From the NCBI GenBank assembly GCA_028819845.1, contig JAPPKS010000027.1, forward strand, positions 310,001 to 374,000: a stretch of 64,000 nucleotides of DNA, given 5' to 3'. This DNA is from Candidatus Poribacteria bacterium. GTDB taxonomy: Bacteria; Poribacteria; WGA-4E; PCPOR2b. Shown here piece by piece: positions 22,330-58,982 of this stretch; positions within the stretch are counted from its first letter, which is position 1, and the number at the start of each line of letters is the position of its first letter. The notes under the pieces were generated by a model. It was not told where the DNA came from. It searched no databases and saw nothing but the letters and a program-made list of their open reading frames with translations. The position numbers were made by a program, and so were the translations under genes.

Positions 22330-22713
22330 TTTATGAAACCCATGCGGACTTTTAGGTAGGTAAGCTCATATTTGCGTAGCGCGGTGTTGGAAAGACTATG
22401 AAAGTCTACAATAAATCTGCGCGAATTTTGTAGTTAAAGTAGTAGAAATGCCATAATTTTGTAACATCTGAGTGTTAGACTTATCAGCTGATGCTAATCG
22501 GCCGCTTGATTCCGATAATTACCTTACTCCAGCATTGGGCGGGGCAAGATGCCCGGCCTACAGGGCGTGTTGGTTCACGCGGTGCAAGATGCCCCGCCTA
22601 CGGACGCTTCTCTGGGGCTGTATAAAATGAATTGTCAAACGGTTCTAAGGATTCTTGGAATAAAACACTTATTCGGCGGTATTTTCCGGTGGAAGAGAGG
22701 TGAGTGGTTCATT
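22330..22713. other. 384-bp gap holding a repeat and the pst leader
   Basis: The gap contains the dispersed GC-rich repeat at 22539-22612 and the GAGAGGTGAG ribosome site of pstS at its right end. An open frame extends upstream of pstS through the repeat, but it lacks a start with a ribosome site. I see no clear Pho-box-like direct repeat. Confidence 0.5.
22539..22612. repeat. Two-unit copy of the dispersed GC-rich repeat
   Basis: GGGCAAGATGCCCGGCCTACAG and, 29 bp on, GCAAGATGCCCCGCCTACGG are arranged in tandem between the SDR gene and pstS. The same words recur in the rtcA-thiI gap, and a more diverged relative occurs near 59210-59250. All copies are intergenic. Confidence 0.6.
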
Positions 22714-23721
22714 ATGTTTATGAAATTCAGATGGTTCGGCACACTTGCGCTCCTGTTGAGCGTATTTTACAGCGGCTGCGGCGACGATTCCCTCCTAGTT
22801 GAAGTGGATGGTTCAAGCACGGTTTATCCTATTACCGAGGCAGTGGCTGAAGAGTTCCAGAAAGAAAACCCTACATTCAGAGTAACTGTCGGTATCTCCG
22901 GCACCGGCGGCGGATTTAAACAATTCGGACGCGGTGAAACCGACGTGACTAATGCGTCGCGCCCTATCAAACCCTCGGAGGTTGAATTGTGTAAGAAGAA
23001 CGGCATTGAGTATATTGAACTGCCAGTGGCATTCGACGGTTTGGCAATCACAGTCAATCCGGAAAACGACTGGGTGGATTATATGACGGTTGCGGAACTG
23101 AAGAAGCTTTGGGAGCCGGAGGCGCAAGGGAAGATATTATACTGGAATCAAATTCGACCGGATTGGCCGAGTAAGAAGATTTCACTTGCTGGCCCTGGCC
23201 CGGATTCTGGATCGTATGATTACTTTACGAAGGCTGTCTGTGGTGAAGAGGGGGCGAGCCGCGGGGATTTTATTGCTAGCGAGAATGACAACGTACTCGT
23301 GCAGGCGGTAGCCCGGGATGATTACACGCTAGGAGTCTTTGGACTTGCATATTACGAAGCCAATCGGGAAATTCTGAAGCTCGTACCGATAGACGATGGG
23401 AAAATGGACAACGGCGACGGTGCCATCGCTCCCTCGCTAGAGACAGTCAAAAATGCCACGTATCAGCCGCTATCGCGGCCAATCTTCATATACGTCAGCA
23501 AGCAGTCGGCTGACCGTCCGGAGGTTGAAAAATTTGTTGAATTTTATTTGCAGCAAGCGAAGACTTTGACCGAGGAAGCTGAATACATTCCGCTTCCGGA
23601 AGAGACATACCAACTCATCCTGCGGCGTTTCCAAAATCGCGTCACCGGCTCAGTGTTTGGCGGTAAGGGTTCGACATTGGGAGTTTCGATAGATGATGTT
23701 CTACGCGGCGATATAAATTAA
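22714..23721 (+). CDS. pstS: Phosphate ABC transporter substrate-binding lipoprotein
   Basis: The start at ATG 22714 follows GAGAGGTGAG and gives a lipoprotein signal ([10 protein letters not shown]). The mature part opens with [20 protein letters not shown], the phosphate-binding loop of PstS. It continues with [18 protein letters not shown] and [14 protein letters not shown], both contact regions in the family. About 335 residues is normal. The protein captures inorganic phosphate outside the cytoplasmic membrane and hands it to PstCA. It leads the gene order pstS-pstC-pstA-pstB-phoU. Confidence 0.94.
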
Positions 23722-23805
23722 GCGGTGCCGGGAATCCCGTGTTCTAACGGGGCGGAGGATAATCTTGTTTTTTATGAAAAACAACAGTTTCGATGGCCGA
23801 ATCCA

Positions 23806-24705
23806 ATGAGATCGAAGCAGACAAAGACGTCTCGGATCATTGAGCGGATTATTGAATTGAGCCTTATGGCATGTGGTCTACTCTCCATCTTAACCACCGT
23901 TGGAATTATCTGTGTGCTGTTGTTTGAGACGATTGCCTTTTTTAAAGAGGTTTCGGTCTTCGAATTCCTAACCGACAGGGAGTGGACTCCCCAATTCACG
24001 AACAAGCGATTCGGTGTGCTTTCCCTGCTGTCAGGGACAGTGTTAATATCACTAATCGCCGTTTTCACGGCTGTACCCTTGGGGCTGTTGACGGCGATTT
24101 TTTTGAGTGAATATGCCCCGGACAGACTGCGTCGATTGTTGAAACCCATTTTGGAGATATTAGCCGGTGTACCCACGATTGTCTACGGTTACTTTGCGCT
24201 GCTGTTTGTCACGCCGCTTTTGCAGCGACTGATTCCTTCCCTTGAAGCGTTTAACGCACTCTCACCCGGCATCGTAATGGGCATCATGATACTCCCGTTA
24301 GTCTCCTCTCTCAGCGAGGATGCTATGTTTGCAGTGCCCCGCAGTTTGCGGGATGCAGCCTATGCGTTAGGTTCTTCTCGGCTTCAGGTTTCGTGGCGGG
24401 TTGTCGTACCGGCGGCGTTTTCCGGCATAACAGCGTCCTTTGTTATCGCGGTTTCCCGTGCTATCGGCGAGACGATGTTGGTTACAATTGCCGCGGGCAA
24501 GAAACCGACATTCACGTTTAACCCGTTGGTGGCTATAGAGACGATGACGGCTTACATCGTTCAGGTCAGTTTGGGCGACACACCGAGCGGTACGCTTGTA
24601 TACAGGACGATTTTTGCGGTGGGTATGGTGCTGTTTGTATCAACGTTCATGCTCAACATTCTCGGAGACCGGTTGCGCCGGCGTTTTAGGGAGAGGTACG
24701 AATGA
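23806..24705 (+). CDS. pstC: Phosphate ABC transporter permease
   Basis: This integral membrane permease has six predicted helices and the inner-membrane component motif [22 protein letters not shown], followed by AIGETMLV, both diagnostic of PstC/PstA. The start is uncertain. ATG 23806 leaves 13 residues before helix 1, whereas a GTG at 23725 would add 27 residues; neither has a good ribosome site. It overlaps pstA by 4 bp (ATGA). With PstA it forms the channel for phosphate uptake powered by PstB. Confidence 0.92.
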
Positions 24706-29187: not shown

Positions 29188-30159
29188 TCACAAGTTTTCT
29201 TCACCGTAGATTCCTATTCTCCGGTAACGTTCACTTCGCTGTTGAAGCAATACATCTCGATCGAGTTGCATCAATTCTTTCAGATGTTTTCGAATTGCAG
29301 ATTTGACGCGCTTGGCAGCCATCGGAAAGTCTCGATGCGCTCCACCGAGCGGCTCACGAATGATTCCATCAATGATGCCGAATTCGAGCAAATCCACGGC
29401 GGTGGGTTTTAGCGCTTCAGCGGCTTGCGGTGCATGTGTGCCGTCGTCCTTCCACACGATACTGCTACACGCCTCCGGAGGGGCTACGCAATAAATGGCG
29501 TATTCCATCATGAGCACACGATCTCCCATTGCGATGGCTAACGCACCGCCGCTGCCTCCTTCGCCAATCAGAATAACTATCATTGGCACCTGCAATCGCG
29601 CCATCTCTGCCAAATTTTCGGCGATTGCCATGGCTTGTCCACGCTCCTCCGAGCCTCTATCAAAATGCGCCGCGGGAGTGTCGACAAAGCTGATAATAGG
29701 CCGGTTAAACTTTTCTGCAAATTTCATCAACCGCCGCGCCTTCCGATAACCCTCCGGGTGCGGCATTCCAAAATTTACAGCTTGCCGCTCTTTCAGGTTT
29801 TTTCCCTTCTGATGCGCCAGGTAGACAATTGGATTCCCGTCGAACCAAGCCAGACCGCCATTTAACGCTTGATCGTCGTCAAACAACTTATCTCCGTGGA
29901 GTTCAATGGGATCATCGAAGAGCGCATTGATGTATATTGGCGTTTGCGGGCGTTCTTCGTGCCGCGCCAGCCAAACCTTATCCCACCGGGTCAACTTTTG
30001 AAGGGTGTGCCGGGTAAATCGATCGGCATCGGCTTCGAGCGCTTTTATGTTTTCTGCAATACTCGATTCCGGATTTTCTTCGGCGAATGATTTCAGTTGT
30101 TCTATGTGTTGGCCTAACTCGATGAGCGGTTTTTCAAAGTCCAAATTTTTCGAACGCAT
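29188..30159 (-). CDS. accA: Acetyl-CoA carboxylase carboxyltransferase subunit alpha
   Basis: AccA, with AccD, transfers the carboxyl group from carboxybiotin to acetyl-CoA, forming malonyl-CoA for fatty-acid synthesis. The protein has 323 residues, the usual length, with a helical N-terminus (LDFEKPLIELGQHIEQL) and the crotonase-like core: GKNLKERQAVNFGMPHPEGYRKA, FVDTPAAHFDRGSEERGQ, GEGGSGGALAI. accD is not in the window. The gene starts 12 bp after the dprA stop, so the two are probably co-transcribed. Confidence 0.95.
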   Translation of the reverse strand: MRSKNLDFEKPLIELGQHIEQLKSFAEENPESSIAENIKALEADADRFTRHTLQKLTRWDKVWLARHEERPQTPIYINALFDDPIELHGDKLFDDDQALNGGLAWFDGNPIVYLAHQKGKNLKERQAVNFGMPHPEGYRKARRLMKFAEKFNRPIISFVDTPAAHFDRGSEERGQAMAIAENLAEMARLQVPMIVILIGEGGSGGALAIAMGDRVLMMEYAIYCVAPPEACSSIVWKDDGTHAPQAAEALKPTAVDLLEFGIIDGIIREPLGGAHRDFPMAAKRVKSAIRKHLKELMQLDRDVLLQQRSERYRRIGIYGEENL

Positions 30160-30171
30160 AGTGTCAATCTC

Positions 30172-31371
30172 TTATTTTTTCGCAAAATGTTTGCCCGGCA
30201 ACTGTTCGACAATACCTTTCAGTTCAAGGGTGAGGAGAACACTGGACACTCGGTTAATGGGGAGCTGTGCTGTTCGGACAATCTGATCAATGTGTGAGGT
30301 GGGCGCATCTATCGCCGAGAGAACTACGCCTTCATCCGGTGTCAGTTGTACAGACGGCGCAGGCTTGTCCTCCTCCTGCGGCATATCATCTAGTGTCAAT
30401 TGGCGGGAATGGCTGATTGTTGAATCGGGGTGCGGATGTTGCTCATGGGGTTGAGAGGCCGTAGATGATGGAGGTGCCAATCCTGTAAAGGCCTGAGGCA
30501 GTTCATCAAAGAGGTCGTCAACGGAGTGGATGAGGGTGGCTCCTTGATTGATAAGTTTGTGCGTGCCCTGAGAGAGTTTTGAAAAGATTTGGCCCGGCAC
30601 GGCAAAAACTTCACGTCCTTGTTCGGCGGCAAGCCGGGCAGTAATCAGAGAACCGCTGCGTTCAGAGGCTTCGACAACGAGAGTTCCCGAAGTCAATCCG
30701 CTGATAACGCGATTTCGAAGCGGGAAGTTTGTTCCCATTGGCGGCACGGTCATCGGGAATTCGGAGATTAGTGCGCCGCCCGATTCAAGAATTTCATCAG
30801 CGAGATGCCGATTTTCCTCCGGGTATACATGATTCAACCCATTTCCCATGACAGCAATTGTACGGCCGCCCGCTTCTAATGCGCCGCGGTGCGCAACGGT
30901 ATCTATGCCTCGCGCAAACCCGCTGACAATGGTGACCCCCCGCGCTGCAAGCTGCTGGCTAAGTTGCTGACAGGTGGTTTTACCATAATGTGTCGGACTC
31001 CGCGACCCCACAATTGCGATGCTCAATGCGTCTTGCGGAGGCAACCGCCGCTTGACATATAGTACCAGCGGCGGGTCGCTAATCTGTTTGAGAAGGGGTG
31101 GATAAGCTTCATCCTCGAATGTAACGATGTGACACTGATGGGATTGAATAAGTTCAAGTTCCCGATTCAAAGAGACGTGCGACCTGCCGTTGACTAGTCG
31201 TTGGCGCGCCTTATGCGTAAGCCCCTCAATCTGAACCAATTGCTCCGATGTTGCCGTTAAAGCCCTCTCCGCGGATCCAAACGCCGCCATCAGACATCGA
31301 ATTGATTGACTCCCAACACCGGGGATGATGCTGAGATGAATCAAGTTCTTCACTTCATCAGATAACGTCAT
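30172..31371 (-). CDS. dprA: DNA-processing protein DprA
   Basis: DprA loads RecA on incoming single-stranded DNA during natural transformation. The 399-residue protein has an N-terminal helix-hairpin-helix region (about 1-70), the Rossmann-like DprA core (IAIVGSRSPTHYGK, VSGFARGIDTVAHRGAL, GNGLNHVYPEENRHLA, ISEFP, FPLRNRVISGLT), and a C-terminal winged-helix (DLM) domain after a linker. The complete set of core motifs argues for a functional gene. It lies 9 bp downstream of a lipoprotein gene on the same strand. Confidence 0.95.
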   Translation of the reverse strand: MTLSDEVKNLIHLSIIPGVGSQSIRCLMAAFGSAERALTATSEQLVQIEGLTHKARQRLVNGRSHVSLNRELELIQSHQCHIVTFEDEAYPPLLKQISDPPLVLYVKRRLPPQDALSIAIVGSRSPTHYGKTTCQQLSQQLAARGVTIVSGFARGIDTVAHRGALEAGGRTIAVMGNGLNHVYPEENRHLADEILESGGALISEFPMTVPPMGTNFPLRNRVISGLTSGTLVVEASERSGSLITARLAAEQGREVFAVPGQIFSKLSQGTHKLINQGATLIHSVDDLFDELPQAFTGLAPPSSTASQPHEQHPHPDSTISHSRQLTLDDMPQEEDKPAPSVQLTPDEGVVLSAIDAPTSHIDQIVRTAQLPINRVSSVLLTLELKGIVEQLPGKHFAKK

Positions 31372-48271: not shown

Positions 48272-48653
48272 CGACCACTTCTCTTGAGGCGGATTGCACG
48301 GGCGCGGCTTGTCCAAGTTCAATCTTTCCCAATCGAAGGGCAACCGAACCTCCGTTGATTAAGGTAGATTAACCCGTTTGGCAAGCCTTAACCAATCGCC
48401 GTCCCATCAAGCTGCGAGGCGGCTTGGCTAGACACCCTGTCCGTGATTCAGGCGAAACCGCGTCGCGATTAAACTGTTTACGACCGCGGTGGACGTTCTC
48501 GCTACCCACGTAATTGACCTGTAGCGGGCGCGGCGAGTGACATACTCAGTGACCGTTGGTCAGCGAAAAACCCTCCTCTACACTAGCTCAACACCTTCCC
48601 AATTTCCCACGTTGGTATTATTCGGGCACTGACACCCTCCTGCCCCCACGAAC
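48272..48653. other. 382-bp gap before the ABC-2 exporter; nothing identified
   Basis: The gap is moderately GC-rich and carries no frame with family features on either strand. The exporter ATPase at 48654 has no clear ribosome site immediately upstream (CCTCCTGCCCCCACGAAC), which is odd for this genome. Confidence 0.4.
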
Positions 48654-49640
48654 ATGTCCATCATCAAGGTTGAACACCTGTGCAAACAATTCAAGGTACG
48701 CGAACGCCCGGCCGGATTTTGGCGTGGCCTGGGCGGCCTGTTTTCGCGGACACACCACATTATCCAGGCAGTCGACGATGTGAATTTCACCCTGCAACGC
48801 GGAGATATGGTGGGATACATCGGCGCCAACGGAGCGGGGAAGTCAACGACCATCAAAATGCTGACGGGGATTCTCGTGCCGACATCGGGAAAGATTGACG
48901 TCATGGGATTGACGCCGTATCAGCATCGAAGACAGTACACGCGGCGAATCGGCGTGGTGTTCGGGCAACGAACCCAACTCTGGTGGGATTTGCCCGTGAT
49001 GGACTCTTTCGAACTGCTTAAGCACATCTACGAGATTCCAGAGCGTACATACAAGCAAAATCTGGCGTTTTTCAGCGAATTGTTACAACTGGATTGTCTA
49101 ACATCTATGCCGGTCCGGACATTGAGCCTCGGTGAACGGATGCGATGCGATCTAACCGCCGCCCTATTGCATAACCCTGAAATTCTTTACTTGGACGAAC
49201 CTACCATCGGTTTAGATGTAGTTGCCAAAGAACAGGTTCGCCAGTTTCTCCAACGGGTTAACGCTGAACGGCAGGTGACGGTGATTCTGACAACCCATGA
49301 CCTCAATGACGTGGAAAAAATCTGTCAACGGCTGCTGATAATTGACACCGGCCGCATCATCTATGATGGCGGTATTGACGCATTGAAACAGCGCTACGGC
49401 AGAACGCGGATGCTCATCGTGGACCTCGCACGAGCCTATTCTAAAATTCAGATTGAGAATGTGGATGTGATTCGACGAGAGGGGAATCGTATCTGGCTCG
49501 CGTTTGACAGGGACACTATCTCAGCTTCCGAAGTCATAACGCGAGTGACGGCGCATTATGAAATTCAGGATTTAACGATTTCCGAACCGGAAATTGAGGA
49601 AATCGTGAGAAAAATCTACCAGTCCGGCATGACGGATTAA
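48654..49640 (+). CDS. ABC-2 type exporter ATPase
   Basis: The 328-residue ATPase has Walker A GANGAGKSTTIKMLTGIL, the Q-loop phrase VVFGQRTQLWWDLPV, the degenerate signature RTLSLGERMRCDLTAAL, Walker B ILYLDEPTIGLD and a C-terminal ~80-residue regulatory extension. The GQRTQLWWDLP and LSLGxRMR phrases mark the subgroup that pairs with ABC2_membrane_6/DUF990 permeases, which are encoded by the next two genes. Substrates of such exporters include xenobiotics, but the one here is not known. The ATG at 48654 lacks a recognisable ribosome site. Confidence 0.92.
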   Translation: MSIIKVEHLCKQFKVRERPAGFWRGLGGLFSRTHHIIQAVDDVNFTLQRGDMVGYIGANGAGKSTTIKMLTGILVPTSGKIDVMGLTPYQHRRQYTRRIGVVFGQRTQLWWDLPVMDSFELLKHIYEIPERTYKQNLAFFSELLQLDCLTSMPVRTLSLGERMRCDLTAALLHNPEILYLDEPTIGLDVVAKEQVRQFLQRVNAERQVTVILTTHDLNDVEKICQRLLIIDTGRIIYDGGIDALKQRYGRTRMLIVDLARAYSKIQIENVDVIRREGNRIWLAFDRDTISASEVITRVTAHYEIQDLTISEPEIEEIVRKIYQSGMTD

Positions 49641-49649
49641 GGGCCAATC

Positions 49650-50447
49650 GTGCGAAAATACCTCGCTTTTGCTGCAAACGCCTTTCAGAGAACGCTGACC
49701 TACCGATTTGAGCTGTGGGTTGAGTTATTTATCAATGTATTGTTCATGCTGATATATGTGTATCTTTGGAAGGCACTCTACAACGGGAGGTCCGCCGTAG
49801 AAGGGTATGACCTTACCCGTATTCTGACGTACATCGTTGTTTCGCAAACGCTGTTGTCCTTTCACTTTACGTTACGGATTGCACGTGTCATTGAGGAAAA
49901 GGTTCGTACCGGCGAAGTCGTAACCGATTTGATGAAGCCGATTGACTTTCAGTTAATGCTGCTTGCAACAGGGGTGGGAACGACATTCCACACAGTGCTA
50001 TTCAACATGCTTCCAAAACTCCTGCTATTTTATGTCGGTTTGCGTTTGTTGCTGCCCGGTTCTATTCTGACCGTGGGGGTGTTTATAATCAGTGTAATGT
50101 TGGGGTTCGTCATCTTGTTCAACATTGAATTTCTCATTGGGATTCTTGCGTTCTGGGTAGTTGAAATACGCGGTATCTATTTTGCCGTGATATGGGGCAT
50201 TTCTTGGTTTTTTTCGGGCTACTTTTTGCCTTTGGAGCATTATCCCGACCTTCTGGCCAAAATGGCTGAGTATTTGCCCTTCCAAGCGATAATTTATTCT
50301 CCGACAGCAATCTATGTTGGCAGAATTACAGGAAGTGCTATGGTTGGTGTGCTCCTGATTCAACTGTTTTGGGCAGTAGTGTTAATGGGGCTTGGACGAT
50401 TTGCCTACTTAGCTGCCTTGCGAAAATTGGCGATTCAAGGTGGATAA
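49650..50447 (+). CDS. ABC-2 exporter permease subunit 1 (DUF990-like)
   Basis: The start is GTG 49650, 9 bp after the ATPase stop. The 265-residue protein has six hydrophobic segments and begins KYLAFAANAFQRTLTYRFELW, the typical amphipathic N-terminus of ABC2_membrane_6 permeases, with the landmark SGYFLPLEHYPDLL before the last helices. It overlaps the next permease gene by 8 bp. The two permeases probably form a heterodimeric exporter channel. Confidence 0.88.
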   Translation: MRKYLAFAANAFQRTLTYRFELWVELFINVLFMLIYVYLWKALYNGRSAVEGYDLTRILTYIVVSQTLLSFHFTLRIARVIEEKVRTGEVVTDLMKPIDFQLMLLATGVGTTFHTVLFNMLPKLLLFYVGLRLLLPGSILTVGVFIISVMLGFVILFNIEFLIGILAFWVVEIRGIYFAVIWGISWFFSGYFLPLEHYPDLLAKMAEYLPFQAIIYSPTAIYVGRITGSAMVGVLLIQLFWAVVLMGLGRFAYLAALRKLAIQGG

Positions 50448-54380: not shown

Positions 54381-55445
54381 CTATGCAGCACACGGATAAA
54401 CCCCGAGGATTTTTACGAGCACGCATAGCTCTTCAATCTCGTCTAAAGCGGTTCGGACGTTTTCATCTTCGGCATGTCCATCAAAATCCACAAAGAATAC
54501 GTATTCCCAAGCTTTTGTTCGAGCAGGCAAGGATTCAATCCGGCTCATATTGATACCGTTGCGCTCCAAGACTCTGAGGACTTCATAGAGCGCACCGACT
54601 TTGTCTTTAATTGCGAAAAGGATTGATGTCCGGTCGTTTCCGCTTCTTTCCGCGGCGTGCCATCCAATAACAAGGAAGCGGGTCGTGTTGCTTGGGTCGT
54701 CCATTATTGACGCGTTGGATATAGGCACATTATAGATTTCCGCTGCAAGCTTGCTAGCGATTGCCGCGGCACCGTGTTCGTCGGCGGCTATTCGCGCGGC
54801 CTCAGACGTACTTGCGACTTCAATTTGTTGAACACCTTCCAAGTTTTGATGAAGCCATTTTCTGCATTGCGCAAAGGGTTGCGGATGTGAGTAAACTTTA
54901 ACGACTTCGTTCAGTGGAAAATTTGCGAGCAGGTTGTGATCGATTGGCAGGAAGATTTCGGCGCAAATTTGCAACTGCGAGTGCTGGAACATTTCCAGAA
55001 CGTCGCGCACACTACCGTATGTGGAATTTTCGATTGCAACCACTCCGTAATCGGCCCTGCTAGCTTCGACCTCTACGAAGATATCGGTTTGAGGCGATTG
55101 TGGAATGAAATTTGCCGAGCCGCCAAAATGGCGCAGGCTGGCGGCATGCCCAAAACTACCAACGGGGCCGAGGTATGCAATGCGCAATGGCTTTTCTAAG
55201 AATCGGCAAGCCGATATAATCTCTTTGTAAATTTTCTCAAGGGCAATGGATGGAAATCCATCCTTGTTGCGCGCCTTCAACCGAGTCAGAATCTCTTTTT
55301 CACGGTGCGGCGCGTACACAGTCCCCGTTTTTGCGCTTTCTTTGAGGTCGCCGACCTTTTTAGCAATTCGGGCGCGTTGAAACAAGAGATCCAAGATTTG
55401 ATCGTCAATTTGATCGATTTGATTTCGGTAGTCTGCCAGATTCAA
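54381..55445 (-). CDS. pheA: Bifunctional chorismate mutase / prephenate dehydratase (P-protein)
   Basis: This enzyme converts chorismate to phenylpyruvate for phenylalanine synthesis. The 354-residue protein has an AroQ-type chorismate mutase at residues 1-85 (RNQIDQIDDQILDLLFQRA), a prephenate dehydratase at about 88-265 (AYLGPVGSFGHAA, GVVAIENSTYGSV, the TRF motif in NTTRFLVIG), and a C-terminal ACT domain (about 275-345; SILFAIKDKVGALYEVL, ESLPARTKAWEYVFFVDF) for feedback control by Phe. It lies 54 bp downstream of the DUF5069-like gene. Confidence 0.96.
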   Translation of the reverse strand: MNLADYRNQIDQIDDQILDLLFQRARIAKKVGDLKESAKTGTVYAPHREKEILTRLKARNKDGFPSIALEKIYKEIISACRFLEKPLRIAYLGPVGSFGHAASLRHFGGSANFIPQSPQTDIFVEVEASRADYGVVAIENSTYGSVRDVLEMFQHSQLQICAEIFLPIDHNLLANFPLNEVVKVYSHPQPFAQCRKWLHQNLEGVQQIEVASTSEAARIAADEHGAAAIASKLAAEIYNVPISNASIMDDPSNTTRFLVIGWHAAERSGNDRTSILFAIKDKVGALYEVLRVLERNGINMSRIESLPARTKAWEYVFFVDFDGHAEDENVRTALDEIEELCVLVKILGVYPCAA

Positions 55446-55499: not shown

Positions 55500-55751
55500 T
55501 TAGTCTTTCACTAGCGACCGAATCGCAGCAATCATGTCATCGTCTGACGGATTGTTTTTTACGATTTCAATAAACTCGTCGCCAGTAAGCTTGTATTCCT
55601 CCAGGAATACTGATTGATCCATTGGTCACGGGTAAATGTAGTCGCCGATTGTCCCGTTCAATTTAGCGCGCGCTTTATCCGTGATTCGGGCAAGCCAAGG
55701 AATTCCGCCAATGACTAAATCCCGGTGACGCGGTTTCCAGTCGAGTCCCAT
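55500..55751 (-). CDS. DUF5069-like small protein with in-frame TGA (possible selenocysteine)
   Basis: ATG 55751 follows GGAGGTGA, a near-perfect ribosome site. The frame reads 41 residues (GGIPWLARITDKARAKLNGT, GDYIYP), meets TGA at 55626-55628, and continues 41 more codons in the same frame (PMDQSVFLEEYKLTGDEFIE ... AIRSLVKD) to TAA. The joined 83 residues read like one DUF5069-type protein, in which TGA replaces the Cys I recall in the family's C-P-x-D-Q motif. A SECIS-like hairpin follows. Either residue 42 is selenocysteine, or a nonsense mutation split the gene; ATG 55622 has no ribosome site of its own. Function is unknown in both cases. The family match is from memory. Confidence 0.6.
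55593..55610 (-). promoter_or_regulatory. SECIS-like hairpin downstream of the in-frame TGA
   Basis: On the minus strand GTATTCC (55610-55604) pairs perfectly with GGAATAC (55599-55593) around a UGGA loop. The loop begins 23 nucleotides after the UGA. Bacterial SECIS elements are hairpins just 3' of UGA with the loop about 16-37 nt away and a G among its first loop bases; this one meets those criteria. Confidence 0.45.
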
Positions 55752-55781
55752 TAGAGTCACCTCCATGTTTGGTGTTAGTGG

Positions 55782-58700
55782 TTAATTAGCATTTTGTTCC
55801 AACTGCTTCAATGTCTGCTCCAGCAGATTTTGTAAACGCCCGTATTCAGCCCAATTTCCCGTCCGTCTCGCATCTACCGCTTGTTGATAAATTTGGTTTG
55901 CATCTCTCGCCAACTTTGAAATTAAGGTTTGCGTTGCGGCGCGGCCAGATACGTTCTGTAGGTCTTTTTTCTGTACGCCAGATTCCGGTTGCCCTGACGG
56001 CGGCGAACTCGATGCGACCGCTCTCCCAAACATCTTGACCAAGGCTTCGTCAAAACTCGCGCCCCAGACGACGTTTTCTTTATAGCCGATGACGACACGA
56101 CGGAGTTCAGGAATTGCCGATTCCTCATTCTCCGATTGAATGTAGATTGGCTCTACGTACAAGAGGGCGTTGTGCATGGGGATAATTAACAAATTTCCAC
56201 GCAGCACGCGCGATCCTTCCCTATTCCATAAGCTAATCTGTTCGGAAATTTCAGGTTTTTGGGTGATAAAATTTTCGACCTGCATTGGTCCAGGGGCAAG
56301 TTTTCCTTTTGGAAAGCGATAAACGAGCAGTTGGCCGTATTGCGGCAAATCGCATCTTGCAGCTAGCCAAGCCGTGAGATTTAACTTGCTCTTTGGGGTG
56401 AAGGGAAGCATGAGCATGAATTCCGCCTGTTCTTCGCCCGGCAGTTTTATTACAACGTAATAGGGTGCGACTTCTTGTTCATTTGTCAAGTGCGGCTGTG
56501 GGCTCACTTGTTGGGTTGGGAAGGGACTGGGCGGCGCCACAGGCTGATTACGTGGGCGCTCAGTCGTGTCGTAAACCTCTTTACCGATTTCCCAGGGGTC
56601 TTCTTGTGCATAGAAGGTCGTTGGGTCTTTCATGTGATAATCCTGATACATCCGAGCCTGAATAAGGAACATCGTGGTTGGATAACGGATGTGGCTTTTG
56701 AGATCTTCAGGCATGTCGCCAAATGGTTTGAAGAGATCGGGGAAAATACGGTTGTAGCACTCTACAATGGGGTCGTTTTCGCGCTTCATCAGATAGAAAT
56801 TCACGGTGCCATCGTAGGCGTCCACAGTCACTTTTACAGCGTTTCGAATATAGTTTCCATCCCAGGGTTGTTCACCGCCGACGATTCGGCTTGCCGCGCG
56901 TCTTCCCTGCCGTTCCGCAATAGTTGCCCGCACCACATCCGGCATGGGGGCGGAATACGGATAACGTCTCGTTGTCGTGTATGCGTCGATCATCCAGATA
57001 AGCCTGCCGTTGTGAATAACCGCATAGGGGTCTTTATCGAATCGTAAGAATGGTGCGATTTTTTGAACACGCTCTTGTATGTTTCGATGGTAGAGCACCC
57101 GACTAGTAGATGTAATTTCTCCTGGTAGGATGAATTTCAGCTCATTGTTAAATTTCAGCATGTAAACGAACCTGCGCATGAATGATGCGAGTTCAACCCC
57201 GCCCTGTCCCGTGTACGAATATTTGGCATAGCCCTGCCCTTGTTCAGGGTAATCAAACTCCAGTTTGTCATGACGCCCTGGGTGGACGATTGCGTAATGC
57301 GGTGTGAGTTCTCCGTAGTATATACGCGGTCCTGGCTCGGCATTAAACCGATTATCCGTCCATTCGGCTGCATAATTGACTGGGATGTCCTCAATGTACA
57401 TTTTGGGTTTTCCGTCATCAATCTCATTGACGGGGCTCATCACGGCGCCATAACCGTGAGTATAGACGTAGGTCCGCTTATACCAATCTTCATTTCGAAG
57501 TTCGTTCAAATCCAACTCACGAGTTGAGAGCATCACTTGTCGCGCTTCGCCGTCTTCCATTGGGTAGCGGTCAATGTCTACGTCGGCAAAATCATACTGA
57601 CGCCGCAGTTCTTGCAATTGACGAAATGTACGCCTGAGCGGACGCCAATCCCAAAGCCGCACGCTGTTTACGACTGCGGAATTTTCCTCATTCGTAATCT
57701 GCTCGTAGGATAACTCGCCTGTCAAGGGGTATTCTTCTTCCGTCACGGTGTTATCTTCCAAATCATAAGCGAATAAAGTTGCCTTTATGTTAAAGTTAAT
57801 GTATTTGGATTCAAGCTCCTGCTTATTGGGTTCGACCTTTAGCCTTTGAATGAGGCTAGGATAGACCTGGCCAAAGAAGCCAACAATCAATAGGATTACA
57901 ACACCACCGACAGCGGGTGAGATTCGCCGCAAGAAGATGCTGATTAGAAACACTACGGCACAGATGATTGAAATCGCCAGCAAAATTTTCAGCACAAGCA
58001 ACCGCGCTTGGATGGCTGCATATCCGCCGCCGCCGCGGACAACATCGTTCGTAGCGTACAGCAGGTCAAACATTGTAAAGCGGTAATTCCAAGCGCGAGT
58101 CAGCAGTGTAATACCGACTAACAAAAAGAGATGTGTCTTTACGCGCCGCGGCGGATCGAAGCGGTTATTATCGCCAATTAAAGAGCCGTGAAAAAAGTAG
58201 AGCACCGCGGAAAAGATTGTCATTAACAGAAACAATCCAACTAAATTGCCGCAAATAAAGCGTTCAAACGGCATTCTGAAAACGTAATAACTGACGTTTT
58301 TATCGAATATTGGATCGCGGGTAGCCGCGGTTAACACGGCTTTTTCCGTCGTGGTGAACTCGAGAGGACGGCTCAATGTAATTTTGGTTCTACCGTTGCC
58401 AGCACTGCTAATGGAATTGACATTTGCCTGGTGGCTTTGATTTTCCTGCTCAATAACAACTTTATCTCCTACCTTTAAGCCTTTAGCTTCGACATCCAAC
58501 TGAGAAATTAAAACATCTGTGTTGCCGCTTTCAACAGTTTCGGATAGGCGGCTGGCCGATTGAAAGGCGAGGTCGTCCGCTTTGAAATAGCGCAGAGCGA
58601 TTTCCCATCGATCTGCCGCTGTATATCCCATAAGGGCGCTAAACGCAATGGCGAGAAGCGCCAGCACTACGTAAATCATTTTGCGCAGATCGAAATCGAA

Positions 58701-58982
58701 TTCGCCGCTGATTGGGATTGATTCAAGAAGGGTAGGGCTTAGTCGGGAGGGAGTGAAACGCCAAATCAGATAGAGGTTGACGAGAAGGATGACCAGAAAA
58801 AGCCCCCCGACGGCAGCACCCAATGCAACTTTCGTCAATAGAATTTCCGTGAATACTGAAACGTAGCCCACCATATCAAACCAAAGTACGTTGGGGTAAA
58901 TATTGACGAAAATTGCGATAATGCCGGCGATGACCGCCAATACCGCGGCGAGAATAATGAGCCGTTTAAAACGTGATTCCAT
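55782..58982 (-). CDS. UPF0182-family large integral membrane protein
   Basis: The 1066-residue protein has seven hydrophobic segments in the first ~390 residues, the first being LIILAAVLAVIAGIIAIFV. A large extracytoplasmic domain follows, with the UPF0182 phrases IYYGELTPHYAIVH, YPYSAPMP, NYIRNAVKVTVDAYDGTVNFY, FGDMPEDLKSHIRYPTTMF and YQDYHMKDPTTFYAQED. The C-terminal ~60 residues form a helix like that of other members (GNWAEYGRLQNLLEQTLKQLE). The family is widespread in Actinobacteria, cyanobacteria and others, and its function is unknown. It is upstream of and co-directional with the DUF5069-like gene. Confidence 0.93.
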   Translation of the reverse strand: MESRFKRLIILAAVLAVIAGIIAIFVNIYPNVLWFDMVGYVSVFTEILLTKVALGAAVGGLFLVILLVNLYLIWRFTPSRLSPTLLESIPISGEFDFDLRKMIYVVLALLAIAFSALMGYTAADRWEIALRYFKADDLAFQSASRLSETVESGNTDVLISQLDVEAKGLKVGDKVVIEQENQSHQANVNSISSAGNGRTKITLSRPLEFTTTEKAVLTAATRDPIFDKNVSYYVFRMPFERFICGNLVGLFLLMTIFSAVLYFFHGSLIGDNNRFDPPRRVKTHLFLLVGITLLTRAWNYRFTMFDLLYATNDVVRGGGGYAAIQARLLVLKILLAISIICAVVFLISIFLRRISPAVGGVVILLIVGFFGQVYPSLIQRLKVEPNKQELESKYINFNIKATLFAYDLEDNTVTEEEYPLTGELSYEQITNEENSAVVNSVRLWDWRPLRRTFRQLQELRRQYDFADVDIDRYPMEDGEARQVMLSTRELDLNELRNEDWYKRTYVYTHGYGAVMSPVNEIDDGKPKMYIEDIPVNYAAEWTDNRFNAEPGPRIYYGELTPHYAIVHPGRHDKLEFDYPEQGQGYAKYSYTGQGGVELASFMRRFVYMLKFNNELKFILPGEITSTSRVLYHRNIQERVQKIAPFLRFDKDPYAVIHNGRLIWMIDAYTTTRRYPYSAPMPDVVRATIAERQGRRAASRIVGGEQPWDGNYIRNAVKVTVDAYDGTVNFYLMKRENDPIVECYNRIFPDLFKPFGDMPEDLKSHIRYPTTMFLIQARMYQDYHMKDPTTFYAQEDPWEIGKEVYDTTERPRNQPVAPPSPFPTQQVSPQPHLTNEQEVAPYYVVIKLPGEEQAEFMLMLPFTPKSKLNLTAWLAARCDLPQYGQLLVYRFPKGKLAPGPMQVENFITQKPEISEQISLWNREGSRVLRGNLLIIPMHNALLYVEPIYIQSENEESAIPELRRVVIGYKENVVWGASFDEALVKMFGRAVASSSPPSGQPESGVQKKDLQNVSGRAATQTLISKLARDANQIYQQAVDARRTGNWAEYGRLQNLLEQTLKQLEQNAN

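Follow-up and report, generated by a model that had tools for sequence, protein, structure and literature searches.

The genome of a Candidatus Poribacteria bacterium contains a small gene whose reading frame is interrupted in its centre by a TGA codon, which raises the question whether this codon terminates translation or directs the incorporation of selenocysteine (Sec). The gene (55500..55751, minus strand) is located in a stretch of 64,000 nucleotides, which was analysed as a whole and is termed the window, and its product resembles proteins of the family DUF5069 (PF16798). An initial annotation had regarded it as a possible undescribed selenoprotein, a proposal that is upheld by our analysis, in which none of the findings named at the time as grounds for its dismissal has emerged. 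We consider it close to certain that the locus constitutes a genuine bacterial selenoprotein gene, whose UGA codon would be decoded as Sec.

Reading frame and conservation of the TGA codon

The frame proceeds on the minus strand from an ATG (55751-55749) via 40 further sense codons to the TGA at codon 42 (55626..55628), and it continues for another 41 sense codons, devoid of any other stop, to a TAA (55502-55500). Read through the TGA, it encodes a protein of 83 residues with Sec (U) at position 42. It is preceded by a ribosome-binding site (GGAGGTGA, 55757..55764, minus strand) that was read from the sequence and whose motif is also found upstream of most orthologues in Poribacteria. The initial description of the ribosome site, 41 residues, a TGA and 41 codons in the same frame is thereby confirmed in its coordinates, and the search of the joined protein against DUF5069, foreseen as a check, has borne out the assignment with a score of 55.1 bits (gathering cut-off 27). 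This match comprises residues 7-79 and hence spans the TGA, but it covers positions 4-75 of the 133 positions of the model and is not that of a full-length domain. Because the match is partial and the short form recurs in two bacterial groups, we classify it on the basis of its sequence as a subfamily corresponding to the N-terminal half of DUF5069 rather than as a full member. In a search of the genome, the gene was recovered with 49.1 bits and one TGA inside the match. The same genome also encodes a second, diverged DUF5069 protein without internal stop (L002, G000:C7:21893-22183, 27.3 bits). Tandem proteins with two to three DUF5069 domains (about 290-430 residues) are found in many Poribacteria (L046-L063 and others), and most of these long forms, as assessed by profile search, have lost the Sec/Cys position (..SGxD..).

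A single TGA in one assembly could result from a fresh nonsense mutation or a sequencing error in an ordinary DUF5069 gene, an in-frame stop being the usual mark of a pseudogene, and such a mutation had been named as the alternative from the beginning. It is refuted by the recurrence of the codon in other genomes. When 84,980 species genomes were scanned with the joined protein, 22 relatives were obtained with 48-75% identity to the window protein, 18 of which carry TGA at the same codon and four a codon for Cys. In a profile search of 85 Poribacteria genomes, the short gene was present in 78, with one TGA in 72 and no stop in six, all of which belong to one family. A second group of phylum level (64 genomes), which was reached via the relative L033, holds the short gene in 43 of them, with TGA in 36 and no stop in the remaining seven. 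Throughout the 72 Poribacteria and 36 second-group genomes, the stop at codon 42 is TGA and never TAA or TAG, and each of the ten short-form genes without stop that were read carries TGC or TGT, with no other residue encountered at this position, as is expected for an exchange between Sec and Cys. In the TGA genes of Poribacteria, the ratio of the proportions of nonsynonymous and synonymous differences (pN/pS) amounts to 0.18 upstream of the TGA and to 0.24 downstream, the latter computed without the codons of the hairpin described below. Synonymous divergence is near saturation (pS about 0.7) while the protein sequence following the TGA is conserved, and the relatives show purifying selection instead of the drift of a pseudogene. 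Taken together, these observations leave practically no room for a chance mutation or error, which we regard as ruled out.

The pN/pS value of 0.24 after the TGA indicates that the downstream half is translated and constrained. It thus also bears on the possibility that the product of 41 residues is the actual protein and that the downstream frame is retained for another reason, for instance because it overlaps another element or forms a regulatory hairpin. Translation often stops prematurely at the Sec codons of genuine selenoprotein genes as well, and the full-length product is known here from its sequence only. This explanation is still very improbable in light of the described constraint, of the Cys forms, which read straight through, and of the match to DUF5069, the predicted structure and the alignment to a solved homologue, all of which span both halves. 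As third alternative, UGA might be reassigned or read as another amino acid, such as Trp or Gly, or by a suppressor tRNA, as UGA has been reassigned in some uncultured bacteria. We attribute virtually no likelihood to this reading and consider it ruled out, since TGA acts as ordinary stop in the window, where 14 of the 36 long open reading frames terminate in it and the frame beyond stays open for no more than 48 codons, and since homologues contain Cys at codon 42 instead of Trp or Gly. It is equally at odds with the presence of the Sec machinery and with a hairpin that tracks the TGA.

The downstream hairpin and the decoding machinery

The hairpin (55593..55610, minus strand) is a candidate bacterial selenocysteine insertion sequence (SECIS) element, which is supported by covariation, synonymous invariance and its loss or alteration in Cys forms. 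It consists of a perfect stem of 7 base pairs enclosing a UGGA loop of four nucleotides (GTATTCC-TGGA-GGAATAC, loop 55603-55600), and its first base is the 16th nucleotide after the TGA, as had been noted initially. Its loop begins 22 nucleotides after the TGA, compared to 19 in relatives, a difference that is due to one inserted codon. These features agree with the model of the bacterial SECIS (bSECIS), which defines a stem of 4-16 base pairs and a loop of 3-9 nucleotides with a G among the first two bases, located 16-37 nucleotides past the UGA (PMC13188914); in the window, the G is at position two of the loop and followed by another G. Folded alone, the hairpin has an energy of -8.1 kcal/mol, which satisfies the guide value of -7.5 kcal/mol. 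A comparable hairpin, defined by a perfect stem of at least 7 base pairs and a loop of 3-9 nucleotides with G as its first or second base, at the spacing of the bSECIS model, follows 8 of the 2331 TGAs of the window (0.34%). The hairpin by itself is suggestive, and it becomes decisive in combination with the comparative data. A scan with Rfam did not match a SECIS family at this site, a result that carries no weight in either direction.

Across 39 distinct TGA genes of Poribacteria and the second group, exactly four of 34 testable codon columns are synonymously invariant, and these are the codons TTC, CTG, GAG and GAA that build the hairpin, while the mean entropy elsewhere is about 1.3 bits. 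The outer pairs of the stem vary with compensation, with the fifth pair being either G-C, C-G or A-U. Changes on both sides of the stem account for 20 cells compared to 7.2 by shuffling, and the covariation score of 0.382 (shuffled mean 0.134) was attained in 0 of 500 shuffles, a count that is not a probability since the sequences are related. In a control where the register was slid, which retains this relatedness, every other register was far worse in covariation. TGA and the same hairpin core at the same distance were also found in all 30 Poribacteria loci that were read from a second search, whose genomes overlap in part with those of the first. In nine of the ten Cys forms that were read, the stem is broken. 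The tenth (L065, TGT) has retained a stem of 7 base pairs with the loop UACA in place of UGGA, which likely is the relic of a SECIS that decays after a change from Sec to Cys, and which suggests that the exchange has occurred in this direction in the respective lineage. An unrooted tree indicates at least two exchanges between Sec and Cys, although, being based on 83 columns, it is weak in its deeper forks.

The components required for the incorporation of Sec, whose absence had been listed as a potential argument against a selenoprotein, were all identified in the source genome (4.6 Mb, 96.6% complete). One cluster (C21:5473-8947) harbours selA (594 bits), selB (373.8 bits) and tRNASec (77.5 bits, anticodon TCA), whereas selD (377 bits) is located on contig 10 (L094, G000:C10:184709-185632). 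The latter contains an in-frame TGA of its own (CAG-U-ASKL), followed after 17 nucleotides by a potential hairpin (GGATCC-GGG-GGATC) that was recognized by eye, and the genome would thus hold at least two selenoprotein genes. At a threshold of E<=1e-60, selA was detected in 64 of the 72 Poribacteria genomes with the TGA form, in five of the six with the Cys form and in three of the seven lacking the gene. In the proposed mechanism, SelA would charge tRNASec(UCA) using selenophosphate derived from SelD, and SelB would bring it to the ribosome by binding the UGGA-loop hairpin 16 nucleotides past the UGA, thus permitting the decoding of UGA 42 as Sec and the synthesis of a single-domain DUF5069 protein of 83 residues. 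In these respects, the gene resembles other selenoproteins decoded via a bSECIS, such as FdhF of E. coli, with which it shares the UGA, an in-gene downstream hairpin with a loop spacing of 19-22 nucleotides, the G in the first two bases of the loop and the set of SelA, SelB, SelD and tRNASec.

Fold of the protein and possible role of Sec 42

The structural context of Sec 42 is illustrated in an AlphaFold2 model of high predicted confidence (predicted local distance difference test score, pLDDT, of 90), which contains four helices and where residue 42 directly precedes the helix 43-50. The sole solved relative, a DUF5069 protein from Leptospirillum rubarum (PDB 3OMD), was identified by phmmer (E 4e-14) and matched by Foldseek with a probability of 1.00, a template modelling score of 0.79 on the query and 43% identity, which reflects the same domain and fold. 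In contrast to the 83 residues with Sec in the window form, which is devoid of the C-terminal half of the Pfam model, 3OMD comprises 145 residues and carries a Cys. Its sequence YNCPLDQ at the place of YPUPMDQ in the window protein agrees with the C-P-x-D-Q motif that had initially been named for the family. Invariant among the window protein and its relatives are D4, K6, P7, R8, R10, G15, W19, L20, R22, D25, K26, A29, G36, Y38, P41, U/C42, D45, L50, F60 and D70, whereas their alignment does not contain a conserved second Cys or a UxxC or CxxU motif.

Sec 42 is part of a U-P-x-D motif at the N-terminus of an α-helix, and Arg, Lys, Asp and Tyr residues are conserved elsewhere in the protein. 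A reactive selenolate is favoured where a selenol sits at the N-terminus of a helix. For this reason, we propose that Sec 42 might act as single-selenol catalyst in a redox or nucleophilic reaction, perhaps regenerated by an external thiol, a guess that in our view has about an even chance of being correct. As main rival to this proposal, Sec might serve in the binding of a metal or substrate, as ligand or in a regulatory role, instead of redox catalysis. Such a role, which we consider possible but the less probable of the two, would be in line with the lack of a second conserved Cys or a UxxC or CxxU motif, with conserved Arg, Lys, Asp and Tyr residues that could form a binding pocket, and with the linkage to the gene pheA in 14 of 23 loci. 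Conversely, Sec is redox-active in most selenoproteins of known function (PMC13188914), and the swaps between Sec and Cys in different lineages fit a requirement for reactivity.

Collectively, we find it rather probable that DUF5069 constitutes a new selenoprotein family, whose short form is a single-Sec enzyme with a helical instead of a thioredoxin-like fold that is new to selenium, and that this form ancestrally contained Sec in Poribacteria and the second group and was converted at least twice to Cys, with a decayed SECIS in one lineage. Besides the relatedness of the sequences that limits the shuffling control, several points weigh against the more general interpretation of the gene as that of a selenoprotein with a catalytic Sec. 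Insertion of Sec is deduced by comparison from sequence alone, and the proposed redox role is based on the position and composition of its site only. Some relatives contain upper stems of 5 base pairs with energies of about -5.7 kcal/mol when folded alone, above the guide value of -7.5 kcal/mol. Finally, the assemblies of eight genomes with the TGA form do not contain selA at the applied threshold; most of these are fragmented metagenome-assembled genomes, and one (the genome of L012) contains a selA fragment of 36 codons at the end of a contig.

Genomic neighbourhood and place among selenoproteins

Downstream of the selenoprotein gene, the window contains pheA (54381..55445, minus strand), which, according to Pfam, encodes chorismate mutase, prephenate dehydratase and ACT domains and which starts with a TTG 54 nucleotides past the selenoprotein stop; both genes likely reside on one transcript. 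The upstream neighbour (55782..58982, minus strand) encodes a UPF0182 protein of 1066 residues, as assigned by Pfam, and in several Poribacteria loci a large upstream open reading frame belongs to one homologous group. A pheA homologue is found directly downstream in the mentioned 14 of 23 loci, including three Cys forms. A specific tie to the synthesis of phenylalanine was rejected, as the neighbours differ in the remaining loci and in the second group, which makes a functional linkage tentative at most. Elsewhere in the window, two long frames (22519-24705, plus strand, and 29188-31371, minus strand) end with a TAA that is followed by 327 more in-frame codons; these places probably represent a repeated pair of genes that adjoin each other in the same frame. 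A third long frame (48633-50447, plus strand) ends with TAA and is followed by 268 in-frame codons, and this downstream part resembles one of paired ABC-2-type permease genes.

The initial view of the selenoprotein as undescribed is in accordance with the literature searched, in which we found neither a mention of DUF5069, PF16798 or the structure 3OMD nor a paper combining Poribacteria with a selenoprotein. DUF5069 is also absent from a catalogue from 2026 of 119 prokaryotic selenoprotein families and subfamilies (PMC13188914), and the window protein differs from the known bSECIS-decoded selenoproteins in its position outside of this list and in the lack of a UxxC or CxxU motif. A search for relatives in viral contigs and plasmids did not find any. 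A further case for comparison is GOS_A, a selenoprotein candidate consisting of two sequences from the Global Ocean Sampling, which is likewise unassigned and has Cys homologues (PMC2398784) and which is not contained in the table from 2026; since it was compared by description only, its identity with DUF5069 constitutes a residual doubt on novelty. With this proviso, DUF5069 is a selenoprotein family that is new to the catalogue and of a known general kind. No NCBIfam model matched the window protein at E<=10, and pipelines relying on this resource are thus expected to miss the gene or to call a truncated fragment.

The described gene adds a family to the bacterial selenoproteome that is carried by nearly all sampled Poribacteria (short form in 78 of 85, with TGA in 72). 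SelA and SelB have been reported as enriched in sponge symbionts in comparison to relatives (PMC5649159), and the DUF5069 protein would provide one concrete client of both proteins in one phylum of such symbionts. The pairing of lineages containing Sec and Cys, one of them with a decaying SECIS, renders the conversion from Sec to Cys directly testable, and the dependence on selenium may offer a handle on the function of DUF5069.
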